IMG/VR virus record: IMGVR_UViG_3300036781_000822
Coordinates: 1-39,741 of that record
DNA length: 39,741 nt
Source: a virus
Strand: one strand, 5' to 3'
Shown: one piece after another, positions 2,942 to 6,062 of the stretch
Position numbering within the stretch: the first letter of the stretch is position 1
How the letters are laid out: each line of letters begins with the position of its first letter
Notes under the pieces: generated by a model
Seen by the model: the letters and a program-made list of their open reading frames with translations, nothing else
Told to the model about the DNA's origin: nothing
Database searches by the model: none
Program-made: the position numbers and the translations under genes

Positions 2942-3085
2942 TCAGTCGAGAATGCGGCGCAGTTCGGCCAAATGATCTGGGTTTTCTTCCCTGACCACTG
3001 AGGCTGCAACCCGCACAAACGCCACGGCTAAATCCTTGCCGTCATAGCCCTCATGCCACAGGCGATGGGAATCGGAGGTTGGTAT
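2942..3085 (-). CDS. Possible small ORF without a normal start codon
   Basis: Up to 47 residues can be read with coding-like composition, including SDSHRLWHEGYDGKDLA and a C-terminal NPDHLAELRRILD, ending in TGA at 2944-2942. The frame begins just at the TAA of the Ala-repeat gene. No ATG, GTG or TTG occurs early; the first possible start is ATA at 3085-3083 or CTG a few codons in. It may be a true gene with a rare start, a fragment, or chance. Gene spacing argues for something here, because otherwise there would be a 160-base gap in a compact cluster. Confidence 0.35.
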   Translation of the reverse strand: MPTSDSHRLWHEGYDGKDLAVAFVRVAASVVREENPDHLAELRRILD

Positions 3086-3867
3086 TAGGCCGCAATCATG
3101 CGTTCAACGAGCCGAAGCGCCGATTGCTGAAGATCCAACCGGGTAACCTTTAGGGCGGCCCCGGCGGCGTCCCCGGCAGCGACCCCGGCAGCGGCCCAGG
3201 CAGCGACCCCGGCGGCGGCCCCGGCGGCGGCCCCGGCAGCGGCCCAGGCAGCGACCCCGGCGGCGGCCCAGGCAGCGACCCCGGCGGCGGCCCCGGCGGC
3301 GGCCCCGGCGGCGGCCCCGGCGGCGTCCCCGGCAGCGTCCCCGGCAGCGGCCCTGGCGGCGGCCCTGGCGGCCCCGGCAGCGGCCCCGGCGGCGTCCCCG
3401 GCAGCGTCCCCGGCAGCGGCCCTGGCGGCGTGAGCATCATCACGCGCGGCCGCGAGCGCGGGCCTCAACGAGGGACACTGCGCCACGTCGGTGATCTCCG
3501 GCAGGGACGCCAAAGTGTCAGCCTGCTTATCCAGCCTCGCCAGCCGTAGCCATGCAGGAGTATGCACGCGCACGAGCCAGTCAGCAGCCATCAATGCTCG
3601 CCGCCGCTCAACCTCTGCGTCACGGCGCGTTCCAACCACACGCAGGATCAATGGGCGCAACAGTGCATCGCGTTCCTCATCCGGCAGTCCATCATTCCAG
3701 GAACGAAGAAAAGCGCCGACGACTGGACATGCACACTCTGGATGGTCCGACCACGGCTCTCCGGCGACGAATGCTACCGCCTCCATAACGCACATTGCTC
3801 TGTGGTCTTTATGTGCGCCTACTTGAAGGACTCCAACAAGCGCCATCCGCTCAATTACTCCACTCAT
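3085..3867 (-). CDS. Conserved phage hypothetical protein with long Ala-rich repeat
   Basis: A 260-residue protein. Residues 1-137 form a compact domain (MSGVIERMALVGVLQVGAHK, SDHPECACPVVGAF, then ADWLVRVHTPAWLRLA) that I recall in many phage and bacterial hypothetical proteins. Residues 138-239 are almost pure Ala/Gly with periodic Asp, Val-Ala-Ala-Trp and Arg, and residues 240-260 (RLDLQQSALRLVERMIAA) close the protein. The repeat is probably one long Ala-rich helix or a variable linker. GAGG sits about 9 bases before ATG 3867. The function is unknown. The tract is a likely site of length variation by slippage. Confidence 0.8.
   Translation of the reverse strand: MSGVIERMALVGVLQVGAHKDHRAMCVMEAVAFVAGEPWSDHPECACPVVGAFLRSWNDGLPDEERDALLRPLILRVVGTRRDAEVERRRALMAADWLVRVHTPAWLRLARLDKQADTLASLPEITDVAQCPSLRPALAAARDDAHAARAAAGDAAGDAAGAAAGAARAAARAAAGDAAGDAAGAAAGAAAGAAAGVAAWAAAGVAAWAAAGAAAGAAAGVAAWAAAGVAAGDAAGAALKVTRLDLQQSALRLVERMIAA
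3151..3456. repeat. GC-rich low-complexity tandem repeat inside the Ala-repeat gene
   Basis: Imperfect tandem units of GGCGGCCCC, GGCAGCGACCCC and GGCGGCGTCCCC type fill the region that encodes residues 138-239 of the minus-strand gene. Every unit is a multiple of three, so unit gain or loss keeps the reading frame. The opposite reading gives a collagen-like Pro-Pro-Gly ORF, which I regard as a shadow. Confidence 0.9.
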
Positions 3868-4629: not shown

Positions 4630-5238
4630 GTGGCACGGTGTTACCTGAGAAATGGGGTCTGGGGCTGGTCAGTGGAAGACCAGCGGAAGGCGCTGGAAGA
4701 CGCTGGCGCGCTGGACCCCAGCCAGCTTTATCAGGATACCGTGCGCGCCGATGTGGCCAAGCAGCCGGCCAGGGTTAGGCCAGAGATGCTGACGGAGAGG
4801 ACTGCCCTTCTGCGGGCCACCCGCCCCCGGCAGAATGAGGTAATCGCCGTCGCCACGCCGTTGGCCCTGGGCGTAAGCGAGCGTGACCTGATCGATAGTC
4901 TCGCCGCCGCCGGAAAGAACCGCAAGGCCGCTGTCCTGTTCGTCGATAGCGGCCTGCGCATTGCGCCTGACGACGGTATGGCGGCGGCGGCAGTAGCAGC
5001 AGCGGCGTGGCAGAAGGCCAGGCAGGACGTTCGCACGAAGCCCGGGCGCATAGCGGGCAACGTGGCGGCAGCAGCTAAGAAGCTGGCGGATACTGAGAAG
5101 AAGCTCCCAGCCGCACGCCCCCTGTGGCGAAGCAGCCGCCCCGATCGCCTTACTGCGGCGCAGGTCGCGGACAAGGTCGGACTGTCAGTCAAGACACTAT
5201 ATTCAAGGTTCCGCGCCAGACCGAGGGTCAAAAGGTGA
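4630..5238 (+). CDS. Serine-resolvase-like DNA-binding protein without catalytic serine
   Basis: A 202-residue protein with GTG start at 4630. The N-terminal region (MARCYLRNGVWGWSVEDQRK, then ALEDAGA) follows the outline of serine recombinase N-terminal domains, and the C-terminal segment 173-194 (LTAAQVADKVGLSVKTLYSRF) looks like the helix-turn-helix found at the end of resolvases and invertases. The position where the nucleophilic serine is expected, normally YxRxS, has Asn-Gly-Val, so strand cleavage is unlikely. The middle is Ala/Lys-rich. As first gene of the rightward operon beside the palindromic region, it is a candidate regulator binding there. Only weak family resemblance supports the resolvase link; a simple HTH protein is the alternative. 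Its TGA overlaps the methyltransferase ATG by one base. Confidence 0.6.
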   Translation: MARCYLRNGVWGWSVEDQRKALEDAGALDPSQLYQDTVRADVAKQPARVRPEMLTERTALLRATRPRQNEVIAVATPLALGVSERDLIDSLAAAGKNRKAAVLFVDSGLRIAPDDGMAAAAVAAAAWQKARQDVRTKPGRIAGNVAAAAKKLADTEKKLPAARPLWRSSRPDRLTAAQVADKVGLSVKTLYSRFRARPRVKR

Positions 5239-6062
5239 TGCGCGTGCTTGACCTCTTTTCCGGGATCGGCGGCTTCAGTCTCGGCCTTGAGCGGGCAGGC
5301 ATGAAGACCGTGGCATTTTGCGAGATTGATCCATTCTGTCGGCGCGTGCTGGCGAAACACTGGCCGGAGGTCCACTGCTATCCCGACGTTCGAGAATTGT
5401 CCGCGCAGCACCTTACGGCAGACGGACACGGAAGCATCGACCTCATCAGCGGCGGCTTCCCATGTCAAGACATCAGCGTCGCAGGGCGGGGCGCAGGTAT
5501 TACAGGCGAGCGATCTGGACTCTGGTCCGAGTTCGCCCGGCTCATTGGCGAGATACGACCGCGATACGCGATCGTGGAGAACGTCGCAGCTCTGCTTGGA
5601 CGGGGGCTTGGAGACGTTCTCGGAGACCTGGCCGCGCTCGGGTATGATGCGGAGTGGCACTGCATTCCCGCTTCGGCCATTGGCGCTCCCCACGTCAGGG
5701 ACCGCGTCTGGATTGTGGCCAACACCGCAGGCGAGGGACGAGAAGAATGGTATGGCCAACCGTGTAGGCGACCCGAAACGCCATGGCGGCTGGAACCTGT
5801 CGGACTTCGTGGCAAAATGGCCCACCCCAACGGCCCGCGATTGGCGCTCCGGGACGGGCGCGACCTTGCGCGATGGGCACAAGCCTCAACTGCCGGAGCA
5901 GACTGGTGGGCAATTGAACCCGACGTGGGTCGAGTGGTTGATGGGCCTACCGGCAAGGTGGACCGACGTAAGCGGCTCATAGGTCTCGGCAACTCACTGG
6001 TTCCGCAAATTCCAGAGCTGATCGGACGCGCCATCATGGAGTGTGAAAATCATGACAAGTGA
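5238..6062 (+). CDS. dcm: C5-cytosine DNA methyltransferase
   Basis: A 274-residue enzyme that transfers a methyl group from S-adenosylmethionine to C5 of cytosine in DNA. Motif I is DLFSGIGGFSLG (5-16), motif IV is PCQ at 75-77 with catalytic C76, motif VI is ENV with E114, motif VIII is HVRDRVW (152-158) and motif X is LGNSLVP near 250-256. The target-recognition part between VIII and IX is short, as in phage enzymes. ATG 5238 is preceded by AAAAGG and overlaps the upstream stop. A nearby restriction partner is absent, so it is a stand-alone phage methylase, probably protecting phage DNA. Most of its length is overlapped by a second coding frame (5326-5982). Confidence 0.93.
   Translation: MRVLDLFSGIGGFSLGLERAGMKTVAFCEIDPFCRRVLAKHWPEVHCYPDVRELSAQHLTADGHGSIDLISGGFPCQDISVAGRGAGITGERSGLWSEFARLIGEIRPRYAIVENVAALLGRGLGDVLGDLAALGYDAEWHCIPASAIGAPHVRDRVWIVANTAGEGREEWYGQPCRRPETPWRLEPVGLRGKMAHPNGPRLALRDGRDLARWAQASTAGADWWAIEPDVGRVVDGPTGKVDRRKRLIGLGNSLVPQIPELIGRAIMECENHDK
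5326..5982 (+). CDS. Phage protein encoded in +1 frame inside the methyltransferase gene
   Basis: A 218-residue open frame lying wholly within dcm. Its C-terminal two-thirds has the hallmarks of a phage protein family I recognise, usually annotated as hypothetical and found near phage C5 methylases: SLARYDRDT (73-81), FSETWPRSG (98-106), WPTP twice (131-134 and 165-168), and LNPTWVEWLMG (197-207) then a final WTD. The frame is open for 657 bases. The start is unclear: TTG 5326 is the first candidate, with no good ribosome site seen, so real initiation may be internal or coupled. Both frames carry family motifs in the same bases, for example LNPTWVEWLMG opposite EPDVGRVVDG of the methylase. 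Function unknown; a link to methylase or target specificity is guesswork. Confidence 0.65.
   Translation: MIHSVGACWRNTGRRSTAIPTFENCPRSTLRQTDTEASTSSAAASHVKTSASQGGAQVLQASDLDSGPSSPGSLARYDRDTRSWRTSQLCLDGGLETFSETWPRSGMMRSGTAFPLRPLALPTSGTASGLWPTPQARDEKNGMANRVGDPKRHGGWNLSDFVAKWPTPTARDWRSGTGATLRDGHKPQLPEQTGGQLNPTWVEWLMGLPARWTDVSGS

Follow-up and report, generated by a model that had tools for sequence, protein, structure and literature searches.

The window analysed here is a whole virus record of 39.7 kb, and the locus of interest consists of two reading frames that overlap on the same strand (Table 1). Frame A, which runs from ATG 5238 to a stop codon at 6060-6062, meets our criteria for a C5-cytosine methyltransferase (MTase), namely a match to PF00145, the PCQ and ENV motifs, motif VIII and motif X. 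The PF00145 match (E=6.3e-41) covers residues 1-166 only, and the match to phrog_363 (E=1.1e-80) extends over the whole length. Motifs IV (PCQ), VI (ENV) and VIII (RDRVWIVA) are found at 5460, 5577 and 5697, respectively, within the interval 5326-5982 where an earlier, sequence-only reading of this DNA had placed them; motif X (GNSLVPQ), which that reading had put in the same interval, begins at 5988, just 3' of the stop codon of frame B. C5 MTases are made of a large domain, which contains motifs I-VIII and X, and a small domain, which contains the recognition region and motif IX (PMC3404938). The AlphaFold model of frame A contains a confident large domain (residues 1-170) and the helices of motif X (243-273), joined by about 68 residues predicted to be disordered (172-239, pLDDT ~40), and the closest solved folds found with Foldseek are 3g7u, HaeIII and HhaI. 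No small domain with a recognition region and motif IX was found in the same chain. As PF00145 is matched by residues 1-166 only, residues 172-239 are disordered and motif IX lies in frame B (see below), frame A alone is not a complete monomer.

Table 1. Features of the doubly read MTase locus, in positions of the window.
Feature	Positions	Strand	Basis
Frame A, C5-cytosine MTase catalytic polypeptide, 274 aa, motifs I-VIII and X	5238..6062	+	PF00145, phrog_363, AlphaFold, Foldseek
Frame B (+1), candidate full-length second polypeptide from TTG5326, start codon unsettled	5326..5982	+	ORF
Conserved core of frame B, SLARYD to C-terminus	5542..5979	+	Onset of third-base constraint at 5544 (4-fold sites of A); phrog_1008 match
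Dual-coding segment, A motifs ~V-VIII and B SLARYD..WPTP, both constrained	5542..5725	+	Wobble ratios, flattened codon-position divergence
Variable region of frame B (putative target recognition); frame A is a predicted disordered linker	5725..5905	+	Wobble ratio 1.18, B-type periodicity, pLDDT
LNPTWVEWLMG of frame B, MTase motif IX	5914..5946	+	Conservation in 42 relatives; in frame with motif X in L160, L168, L178 and L100
Motif X region of frame A (GNSLVPQ..), beyond the frame B stop	5982..6059	+	A-type divergence pattern; AlphaFold helices at residues 243-273

Frame B is the +1 frame of A. It was found as the sequence-only reading had described it, running for 218 codons from TTG5326 up to a TAG stop (5980-5982), and it is open upstream to position 5305. 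The same reading had taken it for a member of a second recognisable family, and a profile search confirmed this by assigning the 218-codon frame to phrog_1008 (E=3.6e-31), which is also matched by 42/42 aligned relatives. Frame B has no Pfam family, and searches of Pfam, NCBIfam and PDB sequences gave nothing usable. The AlphaFold model of B alone was poor (pLDDT 58) and unfit for a fold search, and no relative was found in the PDB by sequence, so that a small-domain fold of B is not demonstrated. Two ORFs cover the same locus on the minus strand, at 4731-5882 (383 aa) and 5465-6037 (190 aa); they are probably shadows in GC-rich DNA, a view that has no test behind it. Elsewhere on the minus strand, positions 3085-3867 hold a 260-aa ORF with a long Ala/Gly-rich repeat (AAAGDAAGAAAGVAAW...).

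An open +1 frame might be no more than an untranslated shadow of a conserved and codon-biased A, and the similarity among B frames does follow in part from A, since the window still scores 112 bits against the B profile after synonymous permutation of frame A. Such permutation introduces a mean of 3.6 stops in B, and the B frame of the window stays open in only 3% of the cases. When scored with profiles trained on sequence clusters other than the scored one, the real B frame of the window reached 269 bits vs 112±11 after permutation, and 95/95 real B frames outscored all of their 50 permutations each (median 249 vs 96 bits). The third bases at the 4-fold sites of A were then compared in 52 divergent representatives. 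Up to about position 5544, their agreement was mostly 0.25-0.45, for an expected value of 0.26; beyond this point many sites reached 0.6-1.0, and the mean over LNPTWVEWLMG was 0.89. The wobble ratio of A was 2.24 over 5550-5730. In the mirror test, the wobble ratio of B was 2.03 over 5540-5725, indicating that frame A is constrained, 1.18 over 5725-5905, where frame A is almost free, and 1.9 at EPDVGRV, where frame A is partly constrained. Moreover, divergence at positions 1/2/3 of the A codons, measured in 35 independent close pairs, was 0.11/0.06/0.35 upstream, 0.09/0.03/0.13 in the dual core, 0.34/0.18/0.20 in the linker, 0.16/0.09/0.08 at motif IX and 0.15/0.12/0.32 beyond the B stop. According to these values, the coding frame is handed from A to B and back to A: constraint bears on A, then on both frames (motifs ~V-VIII), then on B (the recognition region), and returns to A at motif X. 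Wobble positions are fixed only over the core of B, and the codon periodicity changes to that of B across the linker; the permutation, wobble and periodicity tests rule out the shadow, and the loci selected through A (see below) are also decisive against it; we see hardly any room left for it. The sequence-only reading had offered true dual coding as one of two possibilities, to be rejected if the homologues of B were unconserved shadows with stops in other phages. Examination of the relatives did not refute it, and we consider dual coding established, with near certainty, as far as sequence allows.

How widely is the overlap kept? A tblastn search returned 287 phage records, and at least 594 relatives came from a first scan of IMG/VR. 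In the loci first examined, the frame B homologue was +1 of the frame A homologue in 95/95, with a median overlap of 765 nt; they include phages of Salmonella, Klebsiella, Vibrio, Acinetobacter, Synechococcus, Microcystis, Mycobacterium, Gordonia and Paenibacillus, and the same layout is present on plasmids of Leptospira, Bacteroides, Lacticaseibacillus and an archaeon. To remove the bias that comes from selecting by B, we chose viral loci of three subfamilies by the N-terminal part of A only, and frame B overlapped in +1 in 80/80, 48/48 and 79/80 of them, the single exception having a short A. A standalone B was also sought with the B profile in the GTDB genome collection, and the best 80 loci all overlap an A gene (80/80). 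The A-selected and genome scans considered at most the best 80 loci each, and remote branches are therefore thinly sampled. As a control, ORFs of at least 500 nt in frame +2 were absent from the viral sets and amounted to 3% in the genome set. The A/B overlap is thus near-obligatory in all the samples taken. The second possibility that had been raised, that the family of B as a whole arises by overlap with phage methylases, holds as well, because the family was found only overlapping such MTases in every sample; what had been put as an either/or turns out to be true on both sides. At one locus (L053:2392-3473) a single ORF holds the N-terminal part of A together with B, the rest of A lying in another frame; this is an apparent indel, either a natural variant or an assembly error, and the locus was excluded from the rate tests.

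The C-terminal end of frame B, LNPxWVEWLMGxP, is nearly invariant in 42 relatives, and the region that precedes it is of very variable length. In the window, LNPTWVEWLMG (5914-5946) and EPDVGRVVDG of frame A (5916-5945) are encoded by the same bases, just as the sequence-only reading had noticed. From comparison of the relatives, we identify this peptide as the MTase motif IX that is missing from A. At loci L160, L168 and L178 and on a plasmid (L100), the LNPxWVEWLMG peptide is found in frame A, directly 5' of motif X. The L160 stretch KDERLNPDWVEWLMGYPISWTEGGSRRERLMALGNSVVPLIPEFL aligns without gaps to residues 270-314 of HhaI, the part with motifs IX and X, and in chains of this type, with motif IX in A, PF00145 then spans the whole chain. 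The HhaI match of this stretch is worth only 3.9 bits by itself; the assignment consequently rests on position and co-linearity as well. Besides these four loci, the search for motif IX in frame A gave one genome locus and one locus of the Diva set as candidates by a looser pattern. In the four loci, motif IX has moved into A and the rest of B is still in +1, and they may be snapshots of a frame exchange. As the remaining B is kept in +1 where motif IX sits in A, B does more than supply motif IX. In Rhodococcus phage ReT1v-2, both motif X and a motif IX of the EWMMG type are present in frame A; its +1 frame is still open over A and contains repeated LPTPxxxDxxG units.

Both frames are conserved coding sequence, motif IX is absent from A and present in B, and constraint passes between the frames. 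Since B has motif IX and the variable region, and A is without both, B supplies what A lacks, and the two frames most likely form one enzyme. The "second phage protein" of the sequence-only reading is indeed a separate family, but not an unrelated one. We therefore propose that the locus encodes a two-polypeptide C5-cytosine MTase from a doubly read gene, with a probability of about 0.82 in the absence of expression or activity data. Frame A would give the catalytic subunit, with motifs I-VIII and X and a disordered linker in place of the small domain. Frame B, from its own start inside A, would give the small-domain subunit, composed of a conserved N-terminal part (over A motifs ~V-VIII), a hypervariable recognition region and motif IX. 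Together, the two polypeptides would form a single active MTase modifying the phage DNA, probably as a protection against host restriction. The separate translation of B in this phage, the assembly, the activity, the target recognition by B and the protective role are all inferred. B could instead be a separate overprinted protein, regulatory or anti-restriction for example, that is not part of the methyltransferase: its N-terminal core (SLARYD..WPTP) has no known MTase counterpart and no Pfam family, and this core stays in +1 even where motif IX sits in A. However, motif IX is in B and absent from A, the small-domain region of A is disordered, and no B without A was found among the best 80 genome loci, which makes a separate protein very improbable. 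Extending the two-polypeptide enzyme beyond this phage, we think it probable that an obligate two-subunit C5 MTase is produced from one doubly read gene across a very large phage and prophage family, in which the +1 frame is where the specificity domain evolves, and the catalytic frame passes through that stretch as a disordered linker.

The start of B in this phage is unresolved. The only standard start codons for B at or upstream of the core are TTG5326 and TTG5545, neither of them with a clear Shine-Dalgarno site, and there is no ATG. The main alternative to a separate start is programmed +1 ribosomal frameshifting, which would join A to B, and perhaps back to A, in a single chain with motifs I-VIII, the recognition region and motif IX. 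Besides the lack of a good B start in the window, 84/285 representatives have an ATG without a Shine-Dalgarno-like site and 10/285 have no standard start codon at all; frameshifting would also complete the actinophage A, which stops after motif VIII and whose B holds motifs IX and X. However, as B is +1 of A, the shift needed is of the rarer kind, and a fusion of A to B would be without motif X, which is conserved in frame A beyond the B stop. Many relatives, moreover, have an ATG and a Shine-Dalgarno site for B right after an in-frame B stop. A B stop lies 100-175 nt upstream of the core in 68 representatives. A B start codon is present in 67 of these, an ATG in 55 (81%; 58% expected), and an ATG together with a Shine-Dalgarno-like site in 34, for example GAGGT ahead of MESSQ in the Diva group. 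In genes of the MNEL/MNDL type, the ATG of B lies 4 nt after the ATG of A in 23/23, which also speaks against a frameshift, and we regard frameshifting as unlikely. In 97% of cases B is open over 120 nt or more upstream of the core (43% expected), and in 75% over 150 nt (31% expected). The idea that a conserved B start arises from the "DG" or "VDV" codons of A was rejected, GAT not being enriched.

The small polypeptide of the MTase M.EcoHK31I is reportedly encoded within the gene of the large polypeptide, in a different frame, and in the window and its relatives frame B is placed within the A gene in this way. According to PMC3404938, which summarises Lee, Kam and Shaw (1995), M.EcoHK31I (YGGCCR) has motifs I-VIII and X on the large polypeptide and motif IX on the small one, a division that A and B of the window reproduce. 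Its recognition domain is described there on the large polypeptide (PMC3404938), whereas in our case selection on the variable region acts on the small polypeptide B. Furthermore, M.EcoHK31I is one restriction-modification enzyme, whereas we are dealing with a large phage and prophage family. By analogy, the arrangement may be seen as a variant of the M.EcoHK31I type, a known but rarely mentioned kind, with an unexpected breadth. M.AquI (CYCGRG) is a split C5 MTase of two polypeptides, the small one of which carries motif IX (PMC3404938). This small subunit also holds motif X, whereas motif X of the window stays in A, and the window does not fit the AquI type. In Streptomyces phage Lilbooboo, Gordonia phage GordTnk2 and Mycobacterium phage Noelle, A terminates shortly beyond motif VIII, and the variable region and motifs IX and X are in the +1 ORF; judging by this order of motifs, an AquI-like split would have been reached inside the same family, and only these three fit that type.

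Part of the pair has been recorded before. Both phrog_363 (A) and phrog_1008 (B) are labelled DNA methyltransferase, and the PHROGs entries as shown say nothing about the two being read from the same DNA. In Paenibacillus phage Diva, gp49 and gp50 ("g49 internal gene") are annotated as a nested pair with the same geometry as A and B; no function is assigned to the internal gene in the record, whose statements do not reach past that phage group. We found no literature account of the phage overlap in open-access papers, the only ones covered, and novelty is thus provisional. In the E. coli prophage and two plasmids that were checked, only one gene is listed, the plasmid gene table being known to be incomplete. 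Annotation of the A/B pair is thus inconsistent, Diva listing the internal gene and the prophage and plasmids one gene only. DNA similar to the A gene of Salmonella phage SW3 is present in 68/5426 complete E. coli genomes, on chromosomes; one such chromosome was read and has an open +1 B frame that carries no annotation.

Extended dual coding on a single strand is a subject mostly raised in connection with very small viral genomes. Here nearly all the members sampled show it, in a family that ranges over dsDNA phages, prophages and plasmids, in many bacterial phyla and in archaea, and the handover of selection between frames is visible base by base. We predict that many records labelled as a single "DNA cytosine methyltransferase", such as that of the E. 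coli prophage, omit a specificity subunit. If this is true, a hidden subunit is missing from much annotation and these enzymes may be named or assayed as half-enzymes, which would bear on annotation, on the prediction of phage DNA modification and on any expression of these enzymes. The A/B locus also offers a concrete test of why overlaps persist.
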